Shown here: positions 23,559-41,025 of the stretch, piece after piece
How the letters are laid out: the number at the start of each line of letters is the position of its first letter
Position numbering within the stretch: the first letter of the stretch is position 1
Assembly: GCA_016935015.1 (NCBI GenBank)
Contig: JAFGRT010000135.1
Coordinates: 1-41,025, forward strand
Direction of reading: 5' to 3'
From: Acidobacteriota bacterium
GTDB taxonomy: Bacteria; Acidobacteriota; JAAYUB01
Length of the DNA stretch: 41,025 bases
Translations under genes and position numbers: made by a program
The notes under the pieces: generated by a model
Seen by the model: only the letters and a program-made list of their open reading frames with translations
The model's database searches: none
What the model was told of the DNA's origin: nothing

Positions 23559-24395
23559 ATGAACGCTAAAGACGAGACAAATCTTTCCTGGGCCTTTTTG
23601 ACGGATGTGGGCCTGAAACGAGCATCCAACGAGGATTCCGGCCTCATTCTGACCCTGAATCTCGATGTGGTCGGTGAGCACAGTACCCTCGGGCTGTTCG
23701 TCGTTTCCGACGGCATGGGGGGCAAGGAGCGGGGAGAGCTGGCCAGCAAGATCGCGGTAAAGACCCTGGGCGAAGCGTTTGTGGACTCATTCCTCCGTGC
23801 TTCGTTACGTCGGGTGGCCGAAATCGCCAATTACGGCGAACGACTGGAATCCGCCGAGGCGGAGGTTCTTTCTTCACCCGCCACTTTTCTGATCAACGCC
23901 ATTCAGCAAGCCAATCAACGCATTGGCCGTCTGCGCAGAAACGGCCAGCCGGTGAAAGCTGGAGCCACTGTCACCGCCGGAATCATCACCGATGATTTGC
24001 TGACTCTGGGCCATGTCGGCGACTGTCGCGCCTATCTCTTGTATGAAGGTCATTTACGCCAGTTAACCCAGGATCACAATGTGGTCAACGAGATGGTCAA
24101 AAAAGGGATTCTCTCCCGGGAAGAAAGCCATGAGCATCCGCAGCGCAGTATTTTGTCCCGGGCGCTGGGCAGCCAGGAAAGTGTGGAAGTGGACACGTCC
24201 GTAACGGTCCTGCAAAGCGGCTGCAAAATCCTCTTGTGCACCGATGGTCTTCATTCGATGGTCAGCGAGGAAGACCTGGTTCATGTCTTGTCACGTCCCG
24301 ATCATCCCAAGATCACCACCGGGGAATTGGTCAATCTGGCCAATCAGGCCGGCGGGAAAGACAATATTACAGTACTTGTCATCAGTTTTCTTTAA
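23559..24395 (+). CDS. PP2C-family Ser/Thr protein phosphatase
   Basis: A 278-residue metal-dependent phosphatase that removes phosphate from Ser/Thr. Metal and core motifs are in order: KRASNEDSG, VVSDGMGGKERGELAS, GATVTAGII with HVGDCRAYLL, LTQDHNVVNEM, LLCTDGLHSMV and GGKDNITVLVI. It is a bare catalytic domain without membrane segment. It opens a run of nine close plus-strand genes that includes two FHA (phospho-Thr-binding) proteins, so it probably resets a phosphorylation switch in that system. No kinase is in the operon; the membrane kinase at 8456 is a possible counterpart. Confidence 0.95.
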   Translation: MNAKDETNLSWAFLTDVGLKRASNEDSGLILTLNLDVVGEHSTLGLFVVSDGMGGKERGELASKIAVKTLGEAFVDSFLRASLRRVAEIANYGERLESAEAEVLSSPATFLINAIQQANQRIGRLRRNGQPVKAGATVTAGIITDDLLTLGHVGDCRAYLLYEGHLRQLTQDHNVVNEMVKKGILSREESHEHPQRSILSRALGSQESVEVDTSVTVLQSGCKILLCTDGLHSMVSEEDLVHVLSRPDHPKITTGELVNLANQAGGKDNITVLVISFL

Positions 24396-24415
24396 TCAGT
24401 CAGAGGAGGCGTTTT

Positions 24416-24766
24416 ATGGAAAAAAAGGATTCGGACTTGCAGTCCTTTCGTGCCGGGGATTACCGTCGGGCAACGCCCCGAACCCGTCATGAGCGGACCG
24501 GCGAAATTGAAAAATCAGATTTGAAGCATTTTCCCTTTCTGGAAAAACTGCTGGAATCCGAGGAAGAAGAAATCGAGAAATTCCAGCTGCTTTGCCAGAA
24601 TACGTGCCGCAACATCGACACGATGATGACGCATCAATCCGCCGATCCGGAGATGACGGTCATGTGTCAGTCCGCTCTGGCGGCCTATGGACAAAGCCTG
24701 AAATTGTTGTCGGAGCTCATCACCCTGAAATATGAGAAACTTCAGCAGCAATCGGACGAGAAGTAG
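24416..24766 (+). CDS. Unknown small helical protein
   Basis: A 116-residue protein not recognised. The first 35 residues are charged and probably disordered; the rest is predicted helical, with an acidic run (LLESEEEEIEKFQ) and a C-terminal LLSELITLKYEKLQQQ that looks coiled-coil. It has two Cys in LLCQNTCRN. AGAGGAGG precedes the ATG at 24416. It sits 20 bases after the phosphatase and 9 before the TPR protein. Size, charge and position would suit an adaptor or chaperone-bound partner, but that is inference. Confidence 0.72.
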   Translation: MEKKDSDLQSFRAGDYRRATPRTRHERTGEIEKSDLKHFPFLEKLLESEEEEIEKFQLLCQNTCRNIDTMMTHQSADPEMTVMCQSALAAYGQSLKLLSELITLKYEKLQQQSDEK

Positions 24767-24775
24767 GAGGGGATT

Positions 24776-25183
24776 ATGTTCGCGAAAAAACCGAAGCTTG
24801 CCGTCAGGCCGACGACAGAAGAGATCCACTTTTTAATGGAATGCGGCTACCTTTGCCAGGAACTGGGGCGCGGCCAGGCGGCCACCGACATCTTTCTGGG
24901 TGTCTCCGCCTTGTGTCCGGACGATCCCCTGCCATGCAGCGCCATCGGCACGTCACTCTTGGCCATGGGACAGGTGAATGAAGCCGCCGAGCACCTGCAG
25001 AAAGTGCTGGCCGCTTTTCCTGATGACCCCCTGACACTGGCCCATCTCGGTGAAGCCTATCTCTGCCAGAAAAACACCGCCGAGGCGCGACGATTTTTTA
25101 AACAGAGCCTGGAAAAGGATTCGACCGGGCCAGGGGCGGAGATCGCCCGGGGCTATCTTGAACTGATGAGAGAACTGGAATAA
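24776..25183 (+). CDS. Small TPR protein, SycD/YscG-like
   Basis: A 135-residue soluble protein made almost wholly of three tetratricopeptide repeats, for example AIGTSLLAMGQVNEAAEHLQ and HLGEAYLCQKNTAEARRFF, preceded by a helix EEIHFLMECGYLCQELGRG. Its size and repeat count are like the class II type III secretion chaperones (SycD/LcrH) and the YscG/HrpB1 group, which hold translocators or needle subunits. The likeness is of size and fold only, by eye. TAGGAGGGG precedes the ATG. Neighbours with FliG- and FliH-like features make a secretion-type role worth testing. Confidence 0.78.
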   Translation: MFAKKPKLAVRPTTEEIHFLMECGYLCQELGRGQAATDIFLGVSALCPDDPLPCSAIGTSLLAMGQVNEAAEHLQKVLAAFPDDPLTLAHLGEAYLCQKNTAEARRFFKQSLEKDSTGPGAEIARGYLELMRELE

Positions 25184-25197
25184 ATTCAGACAGGGTT

Positions 25198-25914
25198 ATG
25201 AATGCCGAAACCGAACGGGACACCGTCAATCAGCTGATCGAGAAGTATGTCTCCTACGCCGAGGCGCTGGCCCGTTCGCTGGCGCCACGGCTCCCCTTGC
25301 AGCTGGAGATGGACGAAGTCCTGTCCCTGGCCCGGATGGGACTGGTGGAAGCCGCCCAGAAATTTGACGCTTCCCGACAGGTTTCTTTCAAGACCTTCGC
25401 TTATTATCGCATCCGAGGAGCGATCTATGACGGCATTCGTTCCGTGGGACCGCTTTCGCGGGAGCAGGTCCTCAAGCTGAAATTTCAACGGGGCATGGAC
25501 TACTACCTCCAGCAGGAATCCGGGACGCGGAATCCCGCCGACATGAAAACAGGCCACCCCGACCTGGAACGCCTGAAAAATCTGATGACCACCATGACCT
25601 CGGTTTACCTGCTCTCTATGGACAGCACCCTGGAGCACCGCGAGCTGCCGTCGGAAGGCGCGGAATCGCCACTCGAGAGCTGTGAAAAGAGCGAAGCCAT
25701 CACCTGGCTCCGCCAGGCGATAAAACAGTTATCCGCCCAGGAACAGCAGATCATCCGCATGTACTATTATGAGAACAAGACCCTGGATGAAATCGGTCAA
25801 ATCCTTGATTTATCCCGGTCATGGGTTTGCCGGATGCATGCGCGGATAATCAGGAAACTGCACCAAATTTTCAAGAAGGCCGAGCTTGGCGGCAAGACGA
25901 TACTGAGGGTGTAG
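25198..25914 (+). CDS. FliA/WhiG-type sigma factor
   Basis: A 238-residue sigma-70-family factor of group 3 (sigma-28 type). Region 2 is seen in MDEVLSLARMGLVEAAQKFD followed by FKTFAYYRIRGAIYDGIRS (-10 recognition). Region 4 is LSAQEQQIIRMYYYENKTLDEIG with the helix-turn-helix DLSRSWVCRMHARIIRKL. The region 3 linker is short and divergent. Sigma-28 factors normally drive late flagellar genes, but no filament gene is here; it may direct expression of this operon's own system or of its substrates. No anti-sigma gene is recognised. The ATG at 25198 has only a weak AGGG site, 14 bases after the TPR gene. Confidence 0.88.
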   Translation: MNAETERDTVNQLIEKYVSYAEALARSLAPRLPLQLEMDEVLSLARMGLVEAAQKFDASRQVSFKTFAYYRIRGAIYDGIRSVGPLSREQVLKLKFQRGMDYYLQQESGTRNPADMKTGHPDLERLKNLMTTMTSVYLLSMDSTLEHRELPSEGAESPLESCEKSEAITWLRQAIKQLSAQEQQIIRMYYYENKTLDEIGQILDLSRSWVCRMHARIIRKLHQIFKKAELGGKTILRV

Positions 25915-25966
25915 CCGAGCCCCGTCAGTATGTCTTTTTCCCCAGGCTTTGGGATAGGGTATCTTC

Positions 25967-26974
25967 ATGTCGCCCACTGGACCACTTCCTGAATTGCAAC
26001 TCAAGACCCGCGACCAGGCCCTGGTGATCCTGGGAACCCTGTTCGAAAAAAACGAGCTGGAAGCGATGTTGCAGTATCTTCCGGAAGATCGTCGCGAAGA
26101 ATTGACGCCCTGGGCGGCGATTCTCCGGGATATGCCGGGCAAGGATCGGGTGAAATTCGCCCTGGGCCGCCTCAAGACGTTTCTGGATCCAGCCTATCTC
26201 GAAAAGATAGATGAAATCCATCCCAGCTGGATCGCCCGCTTCCTGGAGAAAGAGCCTCCGGCCCTGGCGGGGATGGTTCTGAAATCACTCCCCGCCCGCT
26301 ATGTATCCCGGGTCCTGAGTATCATGGATGAAGAAAGGGTCCACGATATTCGCCGGATCTTCAAACAACTGAACCCCAACCCCCGGGTGCGGGAACTGCT
26401 GCTGCTGATTCTGGTTCGGCAGTTCAACCTGATCAACCGCCTGTCGGGTATCGGCAAGGATCCCTTCGAAATGCTGTTTTTCCTCAACGGCAGCGAATTA
26501 ATGATCCTCATCGAGGAACTGGGAGTGGCCGAACTGGCCATGGCCTGTCAGAATTTACCTGAAAAGGATTTCGCCTACATCAGTAAAAAACTGCCCGACA
26601 AGATGCAGGAAAAAATCCAACTCAAGCTGGAACAGTATCGGGATATTGAACCGGAACGGATCCGCCGGGCGCGACGCTGCTTTTTGCATATGAAAGACGA
26701 GAAATACTATGAAAAGGGGCAATTGATCCATTTTACGGCGTTGCACATTCTGGCCCAGGCCCTCTATGATATTTCGGAACAGCGGATCAATTTTCTCAAA
26801 TACAAATTGCCCGTCAAAACCGGCCTGTTGCTGGAACACCTGATCAGGGGAAGGAAGGTCACGCCCCCATCCGAGGAGATCGGGGAGTCACGGCGTGAGA
26901 TTATGGAAAAAATCGTCTATCTATCTGAAATTGATCGAATTCGCTCCCTGTGGAAACATTATTGGCGAGGATGA
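25967..26974 (+). CDS. FliG-like protein
   Basis: A 335-residue all-helical soluble protein. Residues about 85-145 (IHPSWIARFLEKEPPALAGM, then LKSLPARYVSRVLSIM) resemble the FliG middle domain, where helices follow an EHPQ-type motif. Residues about 165-260 (DPFEMLFFLNGSELMILIEE, LAMACQNLPEKD, RIRRARR) resemble the FliG C-terminal domain, which forms the flagellar switch ring and meets the stators. The torque-helix charged residues are not clearly conserved. About 75 extra C-terminal residues have no FliG match. GGGATAGGG precedes the ATG. It lies 3 bases before the FliH-like gene. The assignment is by eye; MgtE-N-like or generic FliG-superfamily helical repeats are the alternatives. Confidence 0.72.
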   Translation: MSPTGPLPELQLKTRDQALVILGTLFEKNELEAMLQYLPEDRREELTPWAAILRDMPGKDRVKFALGRLKTFLDPAYLEKIDEIHPSWIARFLEKEPPALAGMVLKSLPARYVSRVLSIMDEERVHDIRRIFKQLNPNPRVRELLLLILVRQFNLINRLSGIGKDPFEMLFFLNGSELMILIEELGVAELAMACQNLPEKDFAYISKKLPDKMQEKIQLKLEQYRDIEPERIRRARRCFLHMKDEKYYEKGQLIHFTALHILAQALYDISEQRINFLKYKLPVKTGLLLEHLIRGRKVTPPSEEIGESRREIMEKIVYLSEIDRIRSLWKHYWRG

Positions 26975-26977
26975 ATT

Positions 26978-27628
26978 ATGCAAGGAAAAATCATCAAGGG
27001 CGGCCTACCGGGCGATTCCGCTGACGACCGCAATGATTTGGATCTATCTTCCCTGGCCAAAGACCGGCAGGTCCTCAAGGGGAACGTCGTCGAGGCGCTG
27101 GATTCGGCGGACAAGATCATCCAGGAAGCCCGGGATAAGGCGGCGGCGATCCTGGAGGAGGCCCGTCACAACAGCGAGGAAATGCGGCAAAAGGCCCAGG
27201 GGGAAGGATATGAGACAGGGCTGGCGGAACTGAACGAGACCATACTCAAGTTCAAACAGGAGTATCGCGAGATCCTGAATAATGCGGAAAAGGACCTGTT
27301 GCAGCTCAGCCTGAAGGTGGCGGAGAGAATCATCGGCCGCGCCCTAGATATGGAACCGGCGCTGTTGCTGGATATCATTCATAATGCACTGCAATCCATC
27401 AAATACCAGCGGGAGATCCGAATCCGCGTCAATCCGGAGCATGTCCCCTATCTGAAGGAAAACAAGATGCAGCTGTACGCCATGCTGGGGGAGAGCAAGG
27501 AAATTGAAATCGTTGAGGATCCATTGGTAAAGGGCGACGGGTGCATCATCGACACGGAAATCGGCACCATCGATGCCCGGCTGGAGACACAACTGCGCGT
27601 TGTCGAGAAATTTCTCATCAAAACCTGA
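26978..27628 (+). CDS. FliH/SctL-like stator protein
   Basis: A 216-residue soluble protein of the FliH/YscL/HrpE family, related to V-ATPase subunit E. In flagella and type III systems these dimers link the ATPase to the switch/sorting platform. The order fits: short N-terminal tail, long Ala/Glu-rich coiled coil (about 40-105, with ADKIIQEARDKAAAILEEAR), then a C-terminal domain with LSLKVAERIIGRALDMEP, IRIRVNPEHVPYL and GGCII-like DGCIIDTEIGTIDARLETQL. That last signature is typical of FliH/SctL. No FliI/SctN ATPase follows, which is unusual. GAGG lies before the ATG, 3 bases after the FliG-like stop. Confidence 0.85.
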   Translation: MQGKIIKGGLPGDSADDRNDLDLSSLAKDRQVLKGNVVEALDSADKIIQEARDKAAAILEEARHNSEEMRQKAQGEGYETGLAELNETILKFKQEYREILNNAEKDLLQLSLKVAERIIGRALDMEPALLLDIIHNALQSIKYQREIRIRVNPEHVPYLKENKMQLYAMLGESKEIEIVEDPLVKGDGCIIDTEIGTIDARLETQLRVVEKFLIKT

Positions 27629-27639
27629 GGAGCCATCAC

Positions 27640-30048
27640 ATGGCGTATCTTGAACTGAAGCTGGCCGGCGGCCAATATCACAAAATTTTTCTCCAGGACG
27701 GTCCGAACACCGTCGGCAACGGGGAGCAGGCCACCATCCGGATCAAGGATCCGCTGATTGCGCCCGAACAGGCCCTCATTACGCCCGCAGGAGATGCCTT
27801 TCATCTGCGCAACCTGGTACCGTCCAACACGATATACCTCAACGGGAGCGTGATGACGGAGGAAGCCGTTCTGGGCGATGGCGACGAATTGATCATGGGC
27901 AGCACTCGCTGCCGTTTCCACCTTCTCGACCTCGACCGAACCCAGGAAATGCTCGAGATCTCCGTCCAGAAAGAGGCCATGGAGATGGATCAGACCATCG
28001 CCACAGCCCGCCGGCCGCCCGAAACCGTTGGCAAACCGCTCATGCCCACCCCACCCTCGACGAAACGGGACGTCAGGCGGGATGGTCCGACTCCCCGTCC
28101 ACCTGCCCCCCCTCCACTCACCCGGCAGGATTTGGAAGCGAATCCGTACCTGGAAATAACGGAACCGGGTCAGGCGACTCGCTTCTTCCCGTTGAACGTA
28201 CCGGAAATAACCGTCGGAACCCGTTCCGAGTGCGACCTCTGCCTCAATGATCCAAACGTGGACGAACGTCATCTGAAATTCATCGTTCGGGAGGAGATGA
28301 TCTCCGTAACTGACATGGACAGCCGAAGCGGTGTCCTGCTGAACGGCAAACGGGTGGCCCGGGAGGTTCTCAAGGATGGGGACCAGATCAAAATCGGGCA
28401 TACACTCCTCGTTTTTCACCCGCCCATGTCCCCGGAACCCGGGCCGGAGGAAGAGGCCGGCGAAAGCCCCGCTGCCGCCGCCATGACCACCGCCAGAGCG
28501 GAGTCATCAACCAAGCCTTTTTTCCAACGCTGGGCCCTGCTTCTTCCCCTTATCGCGCTGCTTTTCGTGGCCATGGCCCTGGTGGCTTTCCTGATTTTCC
28601 GGGCGATCTATCAGCCCAAGGCTGCTATCGGCGTGGATGATGCCCGCGCGGCGCTGCATGATCTACTGCATCATCGGCAATGGGAAGAAGCCCAATCGTA
28701 TTTGGAACAGAAGCCGGTCCTGCCTTTACCCGACGAGGATTTTACGCGGTTTCGGCAGCAGATCGAGACGGAAAAACGCAGCGCCCGGTATGCTGAAGAC
28801 GTTGCCATGGCTCTGGCCAAAGACCAGTTCAATCCGGCGCTGGACCTCTATTTCAAGATACCGGACAACAGTGTTTACCATCCGGAAGTCAGCCGGAGAC
28901 TCATCAATCATCTGGAAAAAAGGGTGGATGACATACTGGACCGCCCGGCTTCGACGGCCGATTACTCGGCCATCATCGACCTCAGCGAAAAGATGCTGCA
29001 GGTCCGGCCGCAATATAAACCGGCGTTGGCCTATATCTGCCTCGCCTATATCGGTCAGCGACTATGGCCGGAGGCCCGTCAGGCCGCCGAAACGATGGTC
29101 AGGACCTGGCCCGAAGCCGCCGAAGGCTACTACTACCTGGCCCAGGCCATTTATTGGCAGGGGCACTACGACACGGCCCTGATCCCTATCAACGAAGCTC
29201 TGCGTCTGGATCCGGAGAATGCGGAATATCTGTTCTTGCGGGCCAAAATCGAAATTCTCATGGAACGCCTTAATGATGCCCGTCTCGATCTGGATCAGGT
29301 GCTGAAAGAAAGGCCGCAGTGGGCCACCGCCCGCGATTTGTACAAGAAACTAACCGGCCAACAGCCGATGGTGAGCGAACCGGATGTCCAGCGCACAGCG
29401 GAGGAAGAGGACCAGCACCGCCAGATGCTGCAGCAACGCCGGGATCAGGCCGAATGGGATCGCGGGGAACAGAAGGCCCGGGCGGCATTCACCGCCGGCA
29501 ATCCCGATCAGGCCACCCGGGAGCTTGGAAATCTCATGACTCGCTACCCCAAATCAAAGCGTCACGGGAACTGGCAGGCAATGGCCACCTCGATGAAACG
29601 GATCGAGACATTAAACGCGGAGGCCGAGACGCTCTCCGAACAGGATTTCACTGCGGCCGTCGCCAAATGGGAACAGATGCGAGAGATCGAGAAGAACACC
29701 CTGGGCCAGGCGGAGAGCCCGTTCGCGCATAGCGCCGCGCAAAAAATCGCCGCCTTCTATACCCGAAGGGCCGCCGAGGATGTTCAACAGGGTGAAATGG
29801 CCAGGGCCTATATTCTCGCCGGCAAGGCATTGGAATGGGATCCCCGGGATGCCGAGGCGGTCGGTATCCGGAGACGGGTCGAGGATAGAGCGGCCGACCA
29901 TTATCGGGAGGGCTTCCGCCTGTATCAGCACGGCAATCTGGACGATGCACGTAAAAACTGGGAGGAGGTCTGCCGCCTCCTCGAACCGGAGAATCCGTGG
30001 TACAAAAAAGCCCGGGAGAAACTGGACGAACTGCAGCAAATGAAATAG
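27640..30048 (+). CDS. FHA-FHA-TM-TPR inner-membrane protein (SctD-like layout)
   Basis: An 802-residue protein. The N-terminus (1-95) looks like a degenerate FHA fold without the usual GR/S/H residues. A second FHA domain at about 165-262 has VGTRSECDL, DERHLKF and SGVLLNGK; the canonical GR is GT and the SxxH is DERH, so phospho-Thr binding may be weak. A membrane helix follows at about 297-322 after a Pro-rich linker. The remaining 480 residues are TPR-like repeats, predicted periplasmic. Type III ring proteins SctD share the plan cytoplasmic FHA, one helix, periplasmic part, but with ring-building domains instead of TPRs. TGAGGAG precedes the ATG, 12 bases after the FliH-like gene. Confidence 0.85.
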   Translation: MAYLELKLAGGQYHKIFLQDGPNTVGNGEQATIRIKDPLIAPEQALITPAGDAFHLRNLVPSNTIYLNGSVMTEEAVLGDGDELIMGSTRCRFHLLDLDRTQEMLEISVQKEAMEMDQTIATARRPPETVGKPLMPTPPSTKRDVRRDGPTPRPPAPPPLTRQDLEANPYLEITEPGQATRFFPLNVPEITVGTRSECDLCLNDPNVDERHLKFIVREEMISVTDMDSRSGVLLNGKRVAREVLKDGDQIKIGHTLLVFHPPMSPEPGPEEEAGESPAAAAMTTARAESSTKPFFQRWALLLPLIALLFVAMALVAFLIFRAIYQPKAAIGVDDARAALHDLLHHRQWEEAQSYLEQKPVLPLPDEDFTRFRQQIETEKRSARYAEDVAMALAKDQFNPALDLYFKIPDNSVYHPEVSRRLINHLEKRVDDILDRPASTADYSAIIDLSEKMLQVRPQYKPALAYICLAYIGQRLWPEARQAAETMVRTWPEAAEGYYYLAQAIYWQGHYDTALIPINEALRLDPENAEYLFLRAKIEILMERLNDARLDLDQVLKERPQWATARDLYKKLTGQQPMVSEPDVQRTAEEEDQHRQMLQQRRDQAEWDRGEQKARAAFTAGNPDQATRELGNLMTRYPKSKRHGNWQAMATSMKRIETLNAEAETLSEQDFTAAVAKWEQMREIEKNTLGQAESPFAHSAAQKIAAFYTRRAAEDVQQGEMARAYILAGKALEWDPRDAEAVGIRRRVEDRAADHYREGFRLYQHGNLDDARKNWEEVCRLLEPENPWYKKAREKLDELQQMK

Positions 30049-30063
30049 GAATAGGGTTGCCTT

Positions 30064-30085
30064 CGGTGACGTGATACGTCCACCG
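30064..30085 (+). promoter_or_regulatory. Hairpin between two operon genes
   Basis: CGGTGACGT (30064-30072) pairs with ACGT-C-CACCG (30076-30085) around a GAT loop, with one bulged C. It sits in the 69-base gap that is among the longest in the operon. It may be an mRNA processing or stability element. Confidence 0.35.
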
Positions 30086-30117
30086 GCGATGATCCACTCC
30101 TGGTGGAAGGATTTCCC

Positions 30118-31602
30118 ATGATAAGGTACAGTCAAAACAAGAGCAAGCCGTGGAAAAAGCAAATAGGAAATCCACGGCGGACGAACCTGCAGCACGCCTG
30201 TTTCTGCTGCCTGTTCCTCCTGTTCATTCTGCTGGGTGGTGTGACGGCCGCACCGGACAAGAAGCACGAGCTCAAGGCGGACAAGGCGTATGCCGAAGGC
30301 GATTTTAAAAAAGCCGTCAAGGAATACAAGAAGGCTGTCAAGGAAGAGCCCAAGAATGTCGAATTGCGCTTCAAACTAGCCCAGGCCTTTCTGAAGAAGG
30401 GCGAAGTGGACGAGGCCATGGCCGAATTCATCCGGGTGACCAACATGGCGCCGGACCATGAGGGCGCCTATCAACACCTGGGCGATTTTTTCTCCGTCAA
30501 GAAGCAGCCGGACAAAGCCGCCAAGGCATACGAGAATCTGGTACGCATCAAACCGGACAGCGCGCAGTATCATTTCCAGTTGGCCAAGGAACTGGACAAA
30601 CTATATCAGACGGATAAGGCCTTGCTCCATTTTTACCGCACCATTCTGCTCAATCCCGACGTTGAGGACGCTTACCCCTATCTTTTCAAACTTTTGCGGC
30701 AAAAAATCGTTCAAAATCCACAAGATCCCGACGCCCACATGGTGCTGGGGAGAGTCTACAAGCTGCACGGCGACATGGGAGAAGCCCGCGCCCAGTTCGC
30801 CGTGCTGGTTCAGCTACAGCCGCAAGCCAGAGACGGCTGGGAGGAATTGCTGGAGGTTTGCACGACGCTGCAGGACTGCCAGTGCGAAACCACGGCCCTA
30901 AGGGGATTGCTGGAATTTCAGCCGAAAAATCTCGCGATGATCGACCGGATAGTGGAAGTCAGCCGGCGTTGCGAGATGTGGGATCAGGCCAAGGAATATC
31001 TGCAGTTGAAAACGGAATTGGCACCCGGCGACGCCACCGCCTATGCTGATCTGGGTCGTCTCTACCAGCGGGAGAACAACCGCATTCAGACTTATTTCTA
31101 CTTCCAGAAATATCTGCAGAATTGCAGTGGCTGTCCCGACAGTGACGAGATCCGCCACTGGTGCCGGAACGAGGAGTTGGCCAGCCCCGAAATCGCCGCG
31201 CAGTACGAAGGATTCCTGCAATTCGAAGCCGGTGTGGATGCATTCCGTAACGGGAATTTCAGTACCGCCCTGTCCTTACTCGAGCAGTCGAAGAGCCAGT
31301 ATTTCAGTTTCGCGCCGCTTCACTTTTACCTGGGCCAGACCCTTGAAGAGCTTGACCGCCGCGGGGAAGCCCTCTTTGCCTACAAGGAAGCCATCAAGCT
31401 GCAGCCGGATAACGCCGAATATTGGTTTTTTCTCGGCAAGGCGCTCGATGCCTTGCAGATGTATTCGGATGCGGTTGTCTGTTTCGGTAAGGTGACGGAA
31501 GTCGATCCCGCCGACACCTACGGGTATGGGGAGCGGACTCAAAACATATTGCAATCTTATACTGAAAAGGGAATAATGAAGAAAAAAAAGATCTTGGAAT
31601 AG
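30118..31602 (+). CDS. Secreted or membrane-anchored TPR protein
   Basis: A 494-residue protein. A basic N-terminus (about 1-25) is followed by a hydrophobic stretch CFCCLFLLFILLGG (about 27-45), a signal peptide or anchor with a likely cleavage after VTAA. The rest is about ten tetratricopeptide-type repeats, for example KAYAEGDFKKAVKEYKKAVK, HLGDFFSVKKQPDKAAKAYE and FYLGQTLEELDRRGEALFAY. It is predicted to act in the periplasm, where it could meet the periplasmic TPR half of the preceding protein. A Cys-rich segment (CQCET, CSGC, CRNEE) in the middle may form disulfides. GGAAGGA precedes the ATG at 30118. Confidence 0.85.
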   Translation: MIRYSQNKSKPWKKQIGNPRRTNLQHACFCCLFLLFILLGGVTAAPDKKHELKADKAYAEGDFKKAVKEYKKAVKEEPKNVELRFKLAQAFLKKGEVDEAMAEFIRVTNMAPDHEGAYQHLGDFFSVKKQPDKAAKAYENLVRIKPDSAQYHFQLAKELDKLYQTDKALLHFYRTILLNPDVEDAYPYLFKLLRQKIVQNPQDPDAHMVLGRVYKLHGDMGEARAQFAVLVQLQPQARDGWEELLEVCTTLQDCQCETTALRGLLEFQPKNLAMIDRIVEVSRRCEMWDQAKEYLQLKTELAPGDATAYADLGRLYQRENNRIQTYFYFQKYLQNCSGCPDSDEIRHWCRNEELASPEIAAQYEGFLQFEAGVDAFRNGNFSTALSLLEQSKSQYFSFAPLHFYLGQTLEELDRRGEALFAYKEAIKLQPDNAEYWFFLGKALDALQMYSDAVVCFGKVTEVDPADTYGYGERTQNILQSYTEKGIMKKKKILE

Positions 31603-31617
31603 GGGCGGCGATTTCAA

Positions 31618-32673
31618 ATGATTAAACTCATCGTGAAGGCCAAAGACCACGACGAAGAAAAAGAGTACAACTTTGATCAGAACATTATCAAGTTTGGCCG
31701 GTTCAAAACCAATGACCTCGTCTTGCCCGGCGCCAACATCTCCCGTCAACACTGTACCATCACCCGTGAAGAAGGTGAATTTCACATCACCGATACCAGT
31801 TCCAACGGCACCTTACTCAACAAAAAGCTCATCGGGCGGGGAAATCATCTGCCGTTGCGCAGTGGTGATATGATCGAACTCGGCGATTTTATCGTCGAAT
31901 TTCAGCTGTTTGTGCCGACGGAAGAATTCGAAAAAACCACCGATTATCTCCAGAAGCGTTTCGAGGAACTGATGGCGGGTTCCACAACCGAGCCCGAGTA
32001 TCCCACCCTCCTGATCATGGGGGGCCCGACGGCCAACACCCGCCTGGAGTTGATTGATGAAATGGAAGAAATCTTGCTGGGCCGCACACCCGATTGCCCG
32101 GTTCAGATCCCGTCCCCCACCGTTTCCAAGCACCACGCCCGTATCATCCGTCGCGGCACCATCATTGAACTGGAAGACCTGCACAGCGCCAACGGAACGT
32201 TCGTCAACAACGTGCCCGTCACCGGCACCTACCGCCTGAAGGATCGTGACGAGATCGTACTGGGCCAGCGGGGGGAAGGGGATCCCATCCGCATCATCTT
32301 CTCTTTCCCCAGCGCGGCCATGGAAAAGGCCGCGGAGGAGATCGCCGAGGCCCCGGCGACGGTGCCCATGTCCGAAGAGGAAGTGGCGGCCCGGATCGCC
32401 GAGGAAAAAAAGGCTCATGAGGAAACCGGCGGCGCAGTCGCAGAGGCCGCCGTCGCCCCTCCTCCGGAACCGGCACCGACCCCTTCCGAGCCCAAACCCG
32501 GACCCGCCCCCAAGGCCCAGTCCACAGAAGAACCGCCACCACCCGCGACGCTGCCGGGCGGGCCACCGGAAGAGATCAAAACCGGCTGGGGCATCATGGA
32601 GTACATCATTTTTGGAGCCGTGGGGCTGGCCGTCCTGGTAGTGATCGTCCTGCTGATCCTGTTCATGATGTGA
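31618..32673 (+). CDS. Tail-anchored double-FHA protein
   Basis: A 351-residue protein with two canonical FHA domains. The first (about 1-100) has KFGRFKTNDLVL, ISRQHC and SNGTLLN; the second (about 120-225) has LLGRTPDC, VSKHHAR and ANGTFVN. All core phospho-Thr-binding residues (GR, SxxH, NG) are present in both. A Pro/Ala/Glu-rich linker (about 230-320) leads to a C-terminal membrane helix (about 325-349) that ends the protein, so the FHA domains face the cytoplasm. It should bind phosphorylated partners at the membrane. It is the last gene of the run, 15 bases after the TPR gene. Confidence 0.92.
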   Translation: MIKLIVKAKDHDEEKEYNFDQNIIKFGRFKTNDLVLPGANISRQHCTITREEGEFHITDTSSNGTLLNKKLIGRGNHLPLRSGDMIELGDFIVEFQLFVPTEEFEKTTDYLQKRFEELMAGSTTEPEYPTLLIMGGPTANTRLELIDEMEEILLGRTPDCPVQIPSPTVSKHHARIIRRGTIIELEDLHSANGTFVNNVPVTGTYRLKDRDEIVLGQRGEGDPIRIIFSFPSAAMEKAAEEIAEAPATVPMSEEEVAARIAEEKKAHEETGGAVAEAAVAPPPEPAPTPSEPKPGPAPKAQSTEEPPPPATLPGGPPEEIKTGWGIMEYIIFGAVGLAVLVVIVLLILFMM

Positions 32674-32703: not shown

Positions 32704-33588
32704 CTATCCTTCGTATTCCTGGTAGATTACCGATCCACACGACTTGCAGTGTGAAGCGTCCACGTCGTGAAATCGAAGGCCGCACGTAGGGCAAGTGATA
32801 TCCCTTTTCCGGGAACGGAGCCATTCCCGCACGATCTGACCGGCCTGCCAGGGAATCAGGATAATACCGGACATGATCATCAGAACCGTCACCCACCGGC
32901 CTGTCTCCGAAACAGGGATGATATCCCCGAAGCCGACGGTCGTCAATGTCACCACCGTGTAATAGAACGCATCACCGAATGTGCTAACCCGGCTGTTAAT
33001 GCCGTTCTCCACGATGAAAAAGACACCCGAGGAGATGAAGAATATGATGAAGATGGTCAGCGCCAACCGGACCACCTTCAGCACATACATGGTGATATTG
33101 CCGAAGAAAAAATCGGGATCGACCATGAAGCGCAGGAAACGAAAAATCCGGAATACCTTGAAAACGCGGATAATCTGGACGAACAAAATGGATTTGGATG
33201 GATCCGTGAAAAACATCAGGAAAATCGTCGGCAGGATGGCCACCAGGTCGATCAGAGAGTAGATGTTCCGCAGATGCCGCCAGCGGTTTTCGGCGGCGTA
33301 TAAACGCAACAGGTATTCCAAGATAAAGAAAGTGACGACGACAACCTCCGTTTTCCACAGTAAATGCCGGGCGGCCTCAGGAATGGGGTATGTTTCCAGT
33401 ACAAACAGGATGCAGACCAGTAAATTCATTGAAATGATAAAGATGTCGATGCCTTTGCCAAGCCGGGTCTGACAATCGATCAGGTAAAACTGGAGGGTCT
33501 GGCGGAGAGTCATCCCGGTGCTGTCAGCCCGCTGGGCCGCCGTCGGTCGGGATGGCGGCCGATCTTTCTTGCTGCCGGTCTGTGTCAT
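32704..33588 (-). CDS. Voltage-gated-type K+ channel with C-terminal zinc ribbon
   Basis: A 294-residue six-helix channel of the Kv/KvAP kind. S1-S3 lie at about 45-140. S4 carries regularly spaced basic residues in IIRVFKVFRIFRFLRF. S5 is followed by the pore with selectivity filter TTVGFGD, then S6. The C-terminus has a CPTCGLRF...HCKSCG pattern, a four-Cys zinc ribbon that may tetramerise or sense metal or redox state. The basic, Pro-rich N-terminus (1-25) is probably disordered. AAGGAG lies 9 bases before the ATG at 33588. It is single, with its own promoter, and converges on the FHA operon. Confidence 0.92.
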   Translation of the reverse strand: MTQTGSKKDRPPSRPTAAQRADSTGMTLRQTLQFYLIDCQTRLGKGIDIFIISMNLLVCILFVLETYPIPEAARHLLWKTEVVVVTFFILEYLLRLYAAENRWRHLRNIYSLIDLVAILPTIFLMFFTDPSKSILFVQIIRVFKVFRIFRFLRFMVDPDFFFGNITMYVLKVVRLALTIFIIFFISSGVFFIVENGINSRVSTFGDAFYYTVVTLTTVGFGDIIPVSETGRWVTVLMIMSGIILIPWQAGQIVREWLRSRKRDITCPTCGLRFHDVDASHCKSCGSVIYQEYEG

Positions 33589-36475: not shown

Positions 36476-39400
36476 TCAGGGCTGATTCAGCATGGCGATG
36501 AGTTCGGCCAAATCCACGCTGTCTGCCTGGCCGTTGCCGTTGCAATCGCCGTTCCAGGTGCAGATATCCCCGGCTGCCACATTGCCGGCCAGATATCCCG
36601 CCAGCAGGATCAGATCCTGGGCGTCCACCACGGCGTCTTTGTTGACGTCCCCCGCCCGGCCGCGGGAAAACGTCCAGTCCACGCCGGCATTGGCCCAGTC
36701 TGAATTGAGCAGTGCGGACCCATCACCCACCGCCCGGACGTTCCACTCGTATTGCGCGCCGAACAGGCAGCCGCTCAAGGTCCAGGTGGTGCCGTCGGCG
36801 GCGATGGTCTCATAGGAATAGTCGGGGGCTCCCGTCAACCGGTAGCGGACCTCGTAGCCCAACTCGTTGGGACTGGTGTTGGTGTCCGTCCAGTCGATCT
36901 GGATGTCGGGCGGCAGGTTGCCAGCTCCGGCGGACGGGGAGGAGAGCAGTGGCGGCAGCAGTGTGGGCAACGCGTAAGTCATGAAACTCCAGTCAGTTTC
37001 TGCATTGGCCCACGGGGAATCCGCGGCGGTGGCGCCGTCACCCGTCGCCCGAACGTTCCAGACATACTCCGTGCCGTTCTCCAGCCCGTCCAGCAGAGCC
37101 GACACCGCATCGGCTCCGGCCAGCATGGTGCTGTAATCGGGATCCGTTGCCCGCTTGTACCGGATTTCAAACCCGGTTTCATTGGGCGAGCTGTTGGCGT
37201 CGACCCACTCCAGCAGCAGGGATGTGGACTGATCCGTCGCGCCATTCACCGGCGTCGTCAAGGTGGGTGGCAGCAGCGCCGTAATCTCGGCCAGCAGATG
37301 ATCCAGGATGGCCTGCATCAGGGCGTGTCGGTCCGCCTCGGCGACGATGTTTTCGAAGGGGAACGCCGTAAATGCGGATCGGACGGCGCTGTCCGTCGAA
37401 TAGACACCCCCGATGTCCGCTGTACCGGTGACGCCGAACAGCGGCGCGGCGGCGTCGGTGGGAATGACCAGATCGAAATAGGACGACATGGGCGTGATCT
37501 GGTTCAGATCGGCCGACAATCCCGACCATTCGCCCAGGCCTTCCACGGCCGAATAGTCACTCACATCGCTATCGTACCAGTCGACACCGAGGTAGTCCCG
37601 CAGAAACGAGCCGGGTGCGCTGTTCCCCGCGCTTCCACCCACCAGGCTGTAGATGTAGTCCTGGGAAGAGAAATAGAGGGTGCCGCCGGAATCCAGGTAA
37701 TCGCGCAGTGCCGTCTCCTCGACGCCGGTCATCGTACTGCCGCTGTTGAAGTCGTCACCCGTGGTCCAGACGATGGCGCGGTACTGGGTCAAAAGATCCA
37801 GGGTGACCGGATTGGAACTGGTGCGCAGGAATACATCATGGGTGTAACCGGCCGCCGTGACGGACGGCGTGATATAGCCCGAGAAATCGGATCCGGAGTC
37901 GCCGTTGACGACCAGTACCTCGTCGCCGTCGGTGGCGAACTCCCAATCCACCACCGCGCCCCATGGGGAATCAACGGTGAAATTTTGATCACCCGTGGCC
38001 CTGACATTCCAGCAGTATTGTGTCAGACCGAGCAACGCGGGCAAGTCGGCCGTGAGGGTTCCCGCCGGCAGGGCCAGATACTGGTACTGGGCGTCATTGC
38101 GGCGCCGGTAGCGGATTTCCATGCCCGCTTCCTCGGGCGACGTATTGGTATCCAGCCAGGTCAGCGTGACGGACAGCGGGTCCAGCCCCGTCTGCCCCGG
38201 GGTCGGCGTCTGCAGTGCCGGCGGCAGCAGTACGAGGGGGGTCAGGGTTGTGAACGTCGCCTCTTCGCCGTAGACTACTCCCCAGCCCGATTCCACCACT
38301 GCACGGTACACATACGGCGTCGACGGCTGTAATCCGCTGATATCCACCTGATAGGGGACATCGGCGATGTCCGCGCCGAGAGAGACCGCGGCAGTCTGCT
38401 GGGAGTATACGCCGGTTGCGGTACCGTATTCGAAATAACCGATAGCATTGCAGCCCTGTGGATTGCCCCGGCCGTGCAGCCGGGCGACGGTTCCACCCAC
38501 CTCCGTGGCCGGATCCGTCTGTGCCACCGGCATGTCGTCGCAGGGATCCCATTCCACTGTGATGGTCCCTTCGTAGGGCACCAGGTTGCGACCCGTCACG
38601 ACCACGTCCAGGGTAGTCGCCGCGGCGGGTGCCGGATTCAGGGTCATATCCACGGTACCGCCCGTGATGGTGCCCCGGCCCAACAGCACTCCGTTGTCAC
38701 TGACGGCCACCTGGGCCCCGTCAGCGGAACAGGTGACAATCACCTGATCGACACCCACCGGTAGGGTGGCGGTGTGGCTCACCACCAGCGCCGTCTGCGG
38801 ACCCAGCCGCAGCATCATCTCCGGATCGCCGAACCATTGGAAGAGGCGGAATTCGTAAAGGGTGTCTTCACTATCCCCTTCAAAGGTATACATGTAGTGC
38901 TTGGCGTACATCAGCGCCTCGGCCGGCCGCCAGGAGTGGGCATAGGAGTTGCCGCCGTCATCCGTGTCATAATCATTCCAGAACGAATCGTACAGGCCAT
39001 GGGTCAACAAGTCGTTATACCCTGAATAGCTGACTTCCGTCGCGGCGACGAGCCCCACCGCTCCAGCGCCGGCCAGGCGCTGAAACGCCTCGGCGAAACA
39101 GGGGCTGCCGTGATCGAACTTGCCGGTGAGGCAGTTGATGGAAAAAACTACCGGTGTCCGGCTCCCGTTGCTCAAATCGGCGTAGATGTTCGCAGTGGTG
39201 AACGGCGGCTCGCCCCAGCCGTCCTCGCCACCGTGGTCGCGGTGCTGCACCAAAGCCACACCGGCGTTGATGGCGTCGATGACGTCCTGGGTGGAAGTGG
39301 GCTTGTCGGTGAACAGGGCGGCATCCGCTGCGGGTACAGTGAAATCCGACGGATCCGGAAACTCTGGTCGGTGCGGATAGCTGTCGCTGCGATAATGATA

Positions 39401-40708
39401 CGGGTCACAACTCAGGCTGTCGGTGGTGGCGGCCGTATAAATGCCGGCGCCCACCGTATCGCGCATGAAATGCATGACATGGGTACCCGTCTCGAAAAAC
39501 CAGCGGTCGGCGTAGCAGTTGTAGTCGTTGTAGTCCTGCAAGTAGGCAGCCAGCAGGAAATCGTTGTACCAGTCGGCGGCGACGGGCGTCCGGTCATAGG
39601 CCAGGATCTTGTCCACCACGGTGGTGCACTGGGCTTCCGTTTCCACGCTGATCCGGCCCAGCACTACGTCCGGGAAATAATCGGTACCGTCCAGCAGCGT
39701 GTACGGCAGGTCCGACACGAACGCCCCGCCATAGGCATCGGGCGATACGGGGTAACCGGGTATCTGCGGCTGATCGCCCACCAGCAGCACATAGGTCAGG
39801 CTGGGCGTGGTGTCGTAAACACCTTGCAGGTAACTGAGGACATCGGCGGCGGCCGTCCCCGTGACACTGGTCGGGACGACATCGACCTCGTACCCCTTGC
39901 GACGCTTCCAGTCGGCCAGCGGTTCGATTTCCTCCAGAAAATCATCGGCCACAATGACCAGATATTCCACGGTGCCGCTTTTCTGATGGAGGTTCTTCAT
40001 GGACCGCTCGGGGATGCCGTTGAGCAGAAACGTGTCGAGGCAGCTGTCGAAAAAAGGATGCGCGCGGTCGCTCCCCCGGGCGCTTTTAATGGGATCCGCT
40101 TTCCCCTCGAAGGTGATGGCGAGCCGGAGCCGCTTCAAGGCGGTGATCTCCTGCTGCCCCGGATTGACCTGCAGCGGCTGCACCTGAAAGCCGATGACCC
40201 GGGTGCCCCGGATGACCCCGTCCAGTGTCAGGCGGGCCGGCGTGACAGGAAACGTTCGGTTTTTCGCATAGGTTTCCCTGTTCCAGACGAATTTCGGCTC
40301 GTGGGGGCCGCAATCCGGCTCCGGCGGCTGGTGCGGAAACACCTGCACCGCCTCCATGGCGACCACCGTCTCCAGCTCTATCAGCTGATAATTGAACTTC
40401 ATTCCGTGGGGCAGGTGCAACATGATGTGGCGAAACGGCAGTTCCGGCTCCCCGACATCCCCCCGACTGCCGCAACGGGGGATGGTCAGCTGGTGGAAAA
40501 TCTCGCCCTCCCGGGGGATGGGATGGGCATAGAAACCATAGATCGTCATGGTCACTTCCAGGCCGGTTGGCGTCTCCACGACATGCACATCCGGTGCCTG
40601 ACCGGGATACAGGCTGCCCAGGTCCACCCAACCGGCTTCCGAGTCACCCCGGACTCCCACAAAGCCCATCATCATCAGAGCAATCATCATGGCTGCAGTT
40701 CTCTTCAC
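36476..40708 (-). CDS. Secreted C25 (gingipain-family) peptidase with Fn3-like repeats and dockerin
   Basis: A 1410-residue exported cysteine peptidase. A signal peptide (1 to about 25) is followed by a propeptide-like part and the C25 catalytic region (about 270-640) with H492 in HRDHGGEDGWG and C526 in SINCLTGKFDHG, 34 residues apart as in gingipain R. Then come an Fn3-type domain (about 735-825), three related modules LPPxLxxPxxGxxx...WxDxNTSPxExGxEIRYR (from about 826, 1151 and 1251), and between the first two a VVNGDSGSDFSG domain of about 200 residues resembling a class I amidotransferase-like fold. A type I dockerin closes it (about 1352-1410: GDVNKDAVVDAQDL and GDCNGNGQADSVDLAEL). GTG 40708 is chosen because GAGGGAAG sits just before it; an ATG at 40765 would bury the signal peptide. 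Confidence 0.92.
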   Translation of the reverse strand: MKRTAAMMIALMMMGFVGVRGDSEAGWVDLGSLYPGQAPDVHVVETPTGLEVTMTIYGFYAHPIPREGEIFHQLTIPRCGSRGDVGEPELPFRHIMLHLPHGMKFNYQLIELETVVAMEAVQVFPHQPPEPDCGPHEPKFVWNRETYAKNRTFPVTPARLTLDGVIRGTRVIGFQVQPLQVNPGQQEITALKRLRLAITFEGKADPIKSARGSDRAHPFFDSCLDTFLLNGIPERSMKNLHQKSGTVEYLVIVADDFLEEIEPLADWKRRKGYEVDVVPTSVTGTAAADVLSYLQGVYDTTPSLTYVLLVGDQPQIPGYPVSPDAYGGAFVSDLPYTLLDGTDYFPDVVLGRISVETEAQCTTVVDKILAYDRTPVAADWYNDFLLAAYLQDYNDYNCYADRWFFETGTHVMHFMRDTVGAGIYTAATTDSLSCDPYHYRSDSYPHRPEFPDPSDFTVPAADAALFTDKPTSTQDVIDAINAGVALVQHRDHGGEDGWGEPPFTTANIYADLSNGSRTPVVFSINCLTGKFDHGSPCFAEAFQRLAGAGAVGLVAATEVSYSGYNDLLTHGLYDSFWNDYDTDDGGNSYAHSWRPAEALMYAKHYMYTFEGDSEDTLYEFRLFQWFGDPEMMLRLGPQTALVVSHTATLPVGVDQVIVTCSADGAQVAVSDNGVLLGRGTITGGTVDMTLNPAPAAATTLDVVVTGRNLVPYEGTITVEWDPCDDMPVAQTDPATEVGGTVARLHGRGNPQGCNAIGYFEYGTATGVYSQQTAAVSLGADIADVPYQVDISGLQPSTPYVYRAVVESGWGVVYGEEATFTTLTPLVLLPPALQTPTPGQTGLDPLSVTLTWLDTNTSPEEAGMEIRYRRRNDAQYQYLALPAGTLTADLPALLGLTQYCWNVRATGDQNFTVDSPWGAVVDWEFATDGDEVLVVNGDSGSDFSGYITPSVTAAGYTHDVFLRTSSNPVTLDLLTQYRAIVWTTGDDFNSGSTMTGVEETALRDYLDSGGTLYFSSQDYIYSLVGGSAGNSAPGSFLRDYLGVDWYDSDVSDYSAVEGLGEWSGLSADLNQITPMSSYFDLVIPTDAAAPLFGVTGTADIGGVYSTDSAVRSAFTAFPFENIVAEADRHALMQAILDHLLAEITALLPPTLTTPVNGATDQSTSLLLEWVDANSSPNETGFEIRYKRATDPDYSTMLAGADAVSALLDGLENGTEYVWNVRATGDGATAADSPWANAETDWSFMTYALPTLLPPLLSSPSAGAGNLPPDIQIDWTDTNTSPNELGYEVRYRLTGAPDYSYETIAADGTTWTLSGCLFGAQYEWNVRAVGDGSALLNSDWANAGVDWTFSRGRAGDVNKDAVVDAQDLILLAGYLAGNVAAGDICTWNGDCNGNGQADSVDLAELIAMLNQP

Positions 40709-41025
40709 GCTTCTTCCCTCACATGATATTTTTGGTATGAATACAAGCCGTCGCTCGACGTCCATCCCGAAGTCTATACACGTCGGCGCGCAAGCCCATT
40801 ACGCTCAACCTGTTCCGCAAAAAAATCCGGTGAAGGATCACAGGGAGAATGCACTCCGCACAGGGATTCTGTCCACGGTATATCGTCCATCCACGTCGTT
40901 TAGTCTGAATGAAAAGCGGATTATACCGGCAACGTCCAACGAAAACAACAGAATAGGCAAAAAAATATCTCCGTTCGTCCCGTAAACGGCCATGACGGCC
41001 GCCGGCTATCATCGGCACCCGTGGA
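40709..41025. other. 317-base leader region of the C25 gene and window edge
   Basis: No gene is seen. It holds a minus-strand promoter candidate at 40920-40948 and a predicted leader of about 200 bases for the peptidase gene. The last 40 bases are GC-rich (GACGGCCGCCGGC) with no clear start of another gene. Confidence 0.45.
40920..40948 (-). promoter_or_regulatory. Promoter candidate for the C25 peptidase
   Basis: On the minus strand TTGTTT (40948-40943), 17 bases, and a perfect TATAAT (40925-40920). The -35 matches only in TTG. Confidence 0.45.

Follow-up and report, generated by a model that had tools for sequence, protein, structure and literature searches.

What kind of machine would pair a FliG-like switch protein and a FliH/SctL-like stator with a protein phosphatase and several FHA and TPR proteins? 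This question is raised by nine genes at positions 23559-32673 of contig JAFGRT010000135.1 (assembly GCA_016935015.1), the whole 41,025-nucleotide stretch of which is referred to here as the window, from an acidobacterial metagenome-assembled genome (MAG; G000) of 4.75 Mb that is 97% complete and fragmented. The operon probably encodes the adaptor and control parts of a new, flagellum-like variant of the non-flagellar type III secretion system (NF-T3SS). At the level of sequence, this reading is carried by the rest of the machine being encoded elsewhere in the same genome, by the homology of gene 5 to FliG, by an FHA domain on the C-ring protein SctQ, and by the placement of the system in its clade.

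The interval holds nine open reading frames (ORFs), all on the + strand, with intergenic gaps of about 3-54 bp. The start of gene 7 is the ATG at 27640, while that of gene 8 (about 30118) is a choice, on which the size of the last larger gap depends. An original prediction, made from the letters of the window alone, had listed these genes as a one-strand operon, and the ORFs and their Pfam and NCBIfam matches bear it out almost to the base. The survey of gene order that it proposed found nine homologues in the identical order at two loci: L058, which shares the family of G000 but is from a different genus (38-58% identity), and L059, from a different family within the order (22-48% identity; the last gene is doubled). 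The nine-gene order is conserved in three genera and two families, far beyond chance. The genes are as follows:

23559..24395, + strand: gene 1, PP2C Ser/Thr phosphatase (Pfam PP2C_2 2.4e-17; NCBIfam Stp1/IreP 9.6e-65; orthologues in L058 and L059)
24416..24766, + strand: gene 2, small helical protein (orthologues of 57% identity in L058 and 39% in L059)
24776..25183, + strand: gene 3, candidate SctG/SycD-type TPR chaperone (TPR Pfams; weak LcrH_SycD 1e-9, SctY and CdsG, all below cut-off)
25198..25914, + strand: gene 4, FliA/WhiG-type sigma factor (Pfam sigma r2/r4 5e-11 and 2e-15; TIGR02479 5.9e-39, below subfamily cut-off)
25967..26974, + strand: gene 5, FliG-related C-ring/adaptor protein with torque residues lost (FliG_M 4.8e-7, over the Pfam cut-off)
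26978..27628, + strand: gene 6, SctL/FliH stator of the export ATPase (Pfam FliH 6e-23, T3SS_SCTL 2e-8)
27640..30048, + strand: gene 7, FHA-FHA-transmembrane-TPR inner-membrane protein (FHA 2e-23; Yop-YscD_cpl 3.9e-21)
about 30118..31602, + strand: gene 8, secreted TPR protein (TPR_2 2.5e-31; signal peptide by eye; orthologues of 58% identity in L058 and 36% in L059)
31618..32673, + strand: gene 9, double-FHA, tail-anchored membrane protein with a C-terminal transmembrane segment (FHA 1.4e-40; Yop-YscD_cpl 2e-19)

The operon had been predicted to form the cytoplasmic and inner-membrane half of an envelope-spanning machine with the rest encoded elsewhere, and the rest was indeed found on two other contigs of G000. 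The single FHIPEP protein of the genome, on contig C184, is an injectisome-type SctV that passes only the hrcV cut-off (843 bits against a cut-off of 692, vs 685 against 772 for FlhA). Contig C195 carries, in order, a FliE/SctI-like protein, SctJ, SctN, SctO, SctP, SctQ, a FliO-like protein, SctR, SctS, SctT, a small protein, a TPR protein, and SctU. SctN (638 bits, cut-off 605), SctU (366, cut-off 358), and SctR (235, cut-off 209) exceed their thresholds; SctS is over both cut-offs and SctT below both. Homology is also clear for SctQ (96 of 101 bits), SctJ (156 of 162; a lipoprotein-type SctJ), and the SctL of gene 6 (75 of 79; matches to HrpE/YscL models down to 3e-29), all just under the equivalog cut-offs. 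With export gate and ATPase intact, the suggestion that the machine might have lost secretion is not supported. Neither the C195 nor the C184 stretch contains fliG, sctL, or a gene for an FHA-transmembrane protein, and the main cluster is likewise without fliG and sctL in G003 and G004. The adjacent fliG-sctL pair of the operon is exactly what the main cluster is short of between SctJ and SctN. C195 and C184 are probably neighbours, because in G003 the corresponding cluster extends to SctV by way of genes for a Gly-rich protein whose C-terminus is needle-like and, after it, a TPR protein.

Gene 5 is truly related to FliG, as Pfam, profile-profile, and Foldseek comparisons all indicate; the FliG relationship on which the original prediction depended was recovered by profile and fold searches. 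Beyond the FliG_M match of gene 5 itself, FliG_C exceeds the Pfam cut-off in the G002 orthologue (L010; 1.6e-11). When ten T3SS FliG-like proteins were compared with 18 flagellar FliG proteins by hhalign, P was 95-97% (E 5e-8 to 2e-10), against P ≤5% for unrelated families as controls, and 0 of 120 column-permuted controls approached the FliG score. FliG also ranks first in a PDB-wide profile search, and the 12 best Foldseek PDB matches to the AlphaFold2 (AF2) model of gene 5 are all FliG. An apparent shared motif, IHPSW, was considered as the counterpart of the FliG EHPQ motif and ruled out, the alignment placing EHPQ at gene 5 residues 96-99. The five torque columns (E. coli K264, R281, D288, D289, R297) are chemically conserved in 18 of 18 flagellar FliG proteins, whereas none of them is conserved across the ten T3SS proteins. 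With these residues gone from every one of the ten compared members, a torque-generating or rotor role for gene 5 is unlikely.

In other acidobacteria, the FliG-like gene sits within the secretion cluster itself. In G260 and G324, of a different family, a single cluster has the order FliE-SctJ-FliG-SctL-SctN-SctO-SctP-SctQ-FliO-SctR-SctS-SctT-SctU; in G324, FliE is immediately preceded by a sigma gene. The order is SctV-SctJ-FliG-SctL-SctN in G041 and G294, FliG adjoins SctL in G092 and G118, and a divergent FliG-like protein lies between SctJ and SctL in G010 and G193 of the sister subclade (E 2e-6 and 3e-5). Because other families keep FliG-SctL between SctJ and SctN, the fliG-sctL pair probably moved as a unit into the PP2C/FHA operon in the taxonomic order of the source organism.

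The same association holds across genomes. Among 396 acidobacterial genomes, FliG-like proteins at E < 1e-20 were found in 12, all of them with NF-T3SS core genes; weaker matches are partial, and many are flagellar FliG or longer, MgtE-size proteins. SctV exceeds the hrcV cut-off in 16 of the 396, and an NF-T3SS core was counted in 19, a figure that includes G001, G002, and G004 with their split or incomplete cores. The hypergeometric probability that all 12 FliG-like genomes fall among these 19 is 2e-18, with relatedness ignored. In a SctV/FlhA tree, flagella (including acidobacterial ones) and non-flagellar systems are split with 100/100 support, and the classical NF-T3SS are grouped apart from the acidobacterial clade, for which support is moderate (91/72). 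Joining the acidobacterial non-flagellar clade to acidobacterial flagella was rejected by the approximately unbiased (AU) test (p-AU 1e-4). By this sequence phylogeny, the acidobacterial systems group with injectisomes, apart from the flagella of their own phylum. A FliG-like protein was probably present in the ancestor of the acidobacterial clade, because it is found in both of its halves.

The FliG-like proteins and SctK occupy the same gene slot, with undetectable sequence similarity. The FliG-like proteins have no Pfam match to YscK, PscK is absent among the Foldseek matches listed for the gene 5 model, and FliG-to-SctK homology failed in profile-profile comparison, which remained at noise with 10 of 120 column-permuted controls reaching the observed score. 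A search for the sorting-platform protein SctK itself gave no YscK match and no profile signal, the FliG-like protein filling its slot. A FliG-to-SctK link is kept solely as a positional hypothesis. The slot holds SctK in the classical T3SS of G378, an 11.8-Mb acidobacterial genome (L144-L145) that has flagellar genes in addition to an injectisome-type system (SctK, SctF, SctV with 923 bits to hrcV). Other type III genes were encountered in the survey. A very long-branch FlhA/SctV occurs in G212 (contig C115, L119), which has SctJ-like and SctN-like genes on another contig (L169); these possibly represent a further divergent type III system. In the two-replicon 3.7-Mb genomes G118, G092, and G158 (L096-L099, L153), the small replicon encodes this T3SS, its FliG-like protein, SctL, and SctV accompanied by an FHA protein with a tail anchor.

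A second feature that sets the system apart is its wealth of phosphothreonine-related parts. SctQ of G000 has an N-terminal FHA domain (1.2e-16), and SctQ of G324 is a fusion of FHA, FliM, and FliN. By sequence, the canonical R/S/H/NG residues for phosphothreonine binding are intact in the SctQ FHA domain and in the two of gene 9, and the PP2C of gene 1 keeps the metal-site motifs DGMGG, GDCRAY, TDG, and GGKDN. Gene 9 also matches the TagH model of type VI secretion system (T6SS) FHA proteins at 1.3e-33 (117 of 120 bits). In G324, Ser/Thr kinase genes occur close to SctV and, in G294, next to SctT, and in G000 a distance of about 4.8 kb separates SctV from a protein kinase gene; such kinases are common in the phylum, so that their proximity is weak evidence. 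In the T6SS, PpkA phosphorylates TssL, which Fha then binds (PMC3953482), and this analogue suggests that phosphothreonine may control the assembly or activity of the ring. SctQ proteins with an N-terminal FHA domain are encoded at L095:3448-5034 and L046:4750-6387, and the non-flagellar fusion of G324 keeps the flagellar FliM middle domain.

Among the envelope parts, no dedicated secretin SctC was found in G000, the sole secretin detected being PilQ (352 bits, over cut-off), which scores 150 bits against the SctC model (cut-off 238). A needle-family SctF candidate is encoded on contig C227 (PF09392, 40 bits against a cut-off of 29.4), with an extra Gly-rich N-terminal half, and short needle-like proteins were detected with a home-made profile in G092, G118, G260, and G030. 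At L160:490-978, L162:1129-1719, L163:1072-1725, and L164:1492-2082, the N-terminal half of the needle-family protein is long, hydrophobic, and rich in Gly; in G001 and G003, each such gene has a TPR chaperone gene as its partner, and G003 holds two copies. The AF2 model of gene 7 has two FHA sandwiches, a transmembrane helix within residues 304-346, and an all-helical TPR periplasmic part. The predicted likeness to SctD thus stands for the cytoplasmic FHA half and fails for the periplasmic part, and, as modelled, gene 7 is SctD-like in its cytoplasmic half only.

Several of the remaining genes also have counterparts in T3SS clusters. Homologues of the gene 3 TPR protein sit within those of G041 and G030, and homologues of the gene 4 sigma factor lie inside or beside those of G030, G041, G294, and G324; a regular-expression scan found no canonical sigma-28 promoter 5' of the operon or of fliE. 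Gene 2 has no Pfam or NCBIfam match and is faintly similar (E 0.008) to a protein of 111 aa encoded close to the G030 TPR gene; it adjoins the TPR gene, an adjacency that is conserved, and is possibly a co-chaperone. The gene 8 protein is presumably periplasmic. Upstream of the operon are panB-panC-like genes and one further gene, with the same neighbours in G002. Directly downstream, and convergent, is a gene whose product resembles voltage-gated ion channels and has a cluster of Cys residues at its C-terminus (32704-33588, - strand), and an ORF of 1429 aa lies near the window end (36476-40765, - strand).

How might such parts work together? The FliG-like protein would join the inner-membrane ring (SctJ and gene 7) to the FliM/FliN-type SctQ ring, as an adaptor working as in the flagellum but without rotating, while SctL would hold the SctN ATPase beneath the SctQ ring. 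A Ser/Thr kinase encoded elsewhere could phosphorylate a ring or membrane component, the FHA domains of SctQ and gene 9 would bind that component and so govern how the machine assembles or how active it is, and the PP2C would undo the phosphorylation, in parallel to PpkA-Fha-PppA of the T6SS. Expression and handling of secreted subunits may be the task of the sigma-28-type factor and the TPR chaperone. Since a dedicated secretin was not found, export may end in the periplasm, the periplasmic TPR parts may form a conduit, or another outer-membrane pore may be borrowed.

Other explanations start from the same genes. Homology to FliG and FliH together with a sigma-28-type factor would be expected of ordinary flagellar genes (fliA, fliG, fliH) displaced in a flagellated bacterium, a case that the original prediction had itself named as one that would refute it. 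There is no flagellum in the genome: G000 has no FlhA besides its SctV-type FHIPEP protein, SctJ rather than FliF holds the FliF position, and rod-protein domains were found neither in G000 nor in 11 other related T3SS genomes without FlhA, in a search that was positive in three flagellated controls (G294, G378, G083). A second FHIPEP protein, of flagellar type, is present in G294 and G378. Given also the lost torque residues and the place of the FliG-like family in NF-T3SS clusters elsewhere, displacement is scarcely credible, and is refuted unless the missing 3% of the genome hides a whole flagellar set. Quite unlikely, too, is that FliG and SctL were recruited to another machine, one with a signalling or structural role that does not secrete and works independently of the export gate encoded on C184 and C195. 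The operon does lie physically apart from those contigs, and most of its nine products are FHA, TPR, PP2C, or unknown parts that do not occur in such form in classical T3SS; against this, the gap left in the main cluster is precisely where other families carry the pair, the FliG-like protein co-occurs with the T3SS core, and the sigma and TPR homologues are found inside T3SS clusters elsewhere. That the operon belongs to a decaying relic is highly improbable: no dedicated secretin was found and the parts are scattered over several loci, but all ORFs are intact, gene order is kept across families at 22-58% identity, a needle-like gene is present, and the same kind of system recurs in several other families.

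A closer rival accepts the same machine and takes its FHA domains as a phosphate-independent scaffold, with the PP2C merely buffering unrelated kinases. It would accommodate the absence of canonical binding residues from both FHA domains of gene 7 and the lack of a kinase gene in the operon and in the window, which also weigh against phosphothreonine control as such; the canonical residues of gene 9 and SctQ, and the PP2C as conserved first gene of the operon, make it somewhat unlikely. Further points tell against an NF-T3SS with FliG-like adaptor in general. The AF2 model of gene 5 is moderate (predicted local distance difference test, pLDDT, 68.5; predicted template modelling score, pTM, 0.52; TM-scores about 0.24), with its domain arrangement unsure; the proteins assigned as FliE/SctI and FliO do not reach curated cut-offs; gene 7 is without the SctD-type periplasmic ring-building fold; and G000 is a fragmented MAG with the operon and main cluster on separate contigs, which leaves any physical linkage between them hypothetical.

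In the published account, the injectisome arose from the flagellum by shedding motility parts including FliG, and the secretin-less systems of Myxococcales are the known intermediate. The acidobacterial systems could be surviving flagellum-injectisome intermediates that lost motility, kept a non-rotating FliG C-ring and the fliE-F-G-H-I order, and added phosphothreonine control, with FliG ancestral to SctK by position. As a whole this account is tentative and may well not hold in every part, although its retained-intermediate component is well supported. A non-flagellar clade retaining FliG in flagellar gene order would represent an earlier-looking state than the Myxococcales systems, and SctK as a remodelled FliG becomes directly testable by structure. 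If true, a phosphothreonine reader on a T3SS C-ring protein would be an unfamiliar kind of control over type III secretion.

Several known systems invite comparison. Abby and Rocha described NF-T3SS solely in Chlamydiae, Proteobacteria, and Verrucomicrobia (PMC3459982), and a review lists SctK as "FliG (?)" (PMC4045390); the literature searched, which did not take in most subscription papers, yielded no account of an NF-T3SS with FliG or of the present acidobacterial clade. As in injectisome NF-T3SS (e.g., rhizobial, Desulfovibrio), SctV is over the hrcV cut-off, SctJ is of lipoprotein type, SctL, a needle-family protein, and SycD-like TPR chaperones are present, and the order is I-J-(slot)-L-N. 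Unlike them, the acidobacterial system has a FliG-related protein in the SctK slot, FHA on SctQ, a FliO-like protein, an FHA-transmembrane-TPR protein in place of SctD, its own sigma factor and PP2C, and no dedicated secretin that could be found. FliO was dropped as a unique feature, as it is already reported in NF-T3SS of Myxococcota, a likeness to the present system, and of some Pseudomonadota (PMC12248157). The Myxococcales systems that the original prediction had proposed as the obvious comparison ("Myxo"; the needleless T3SS* of Myxococcus xanthus; PMC3459982, PMC12075869) match in having no secretin and in standing outside the classical injectisomes. The parallel fails in that Myxo systems, compared here by published description only, are reported without FliE, FliG, and SctF (PMC3459982), whereas FliG-like and needle-family proteins are present in the acidobacterial system.

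With the flagellar basal body and C-ring, the system shares FliG and FliM/FliN domains, and G260 and G324 keep the flagellar order fliE-F-G-H-I-J-K-M/N-O-P-Q-R-flhB with SctJ in the fliF position (in E. coli, fliE is divergent and followed by fliF-G-H-I-J-K-L-M-N-O-P-Q-R). It departs from the flagellum in having no rod proteins, no flagellar FlhA, SctJ rather than FliF, and a FliG without torque residues. Finally, it differs from the T6SS threonine-phosphorylation pathway (PpkA-Fha-PppA; PMC3953482) in that no kinase is encoded in the locus and FHA is fused to a T3SS C-ring protein, and resembles it in encoding a PP2C and FHA proteins with the secretion machine, of which gene 9 nearly reaches the T6SS TagH model.

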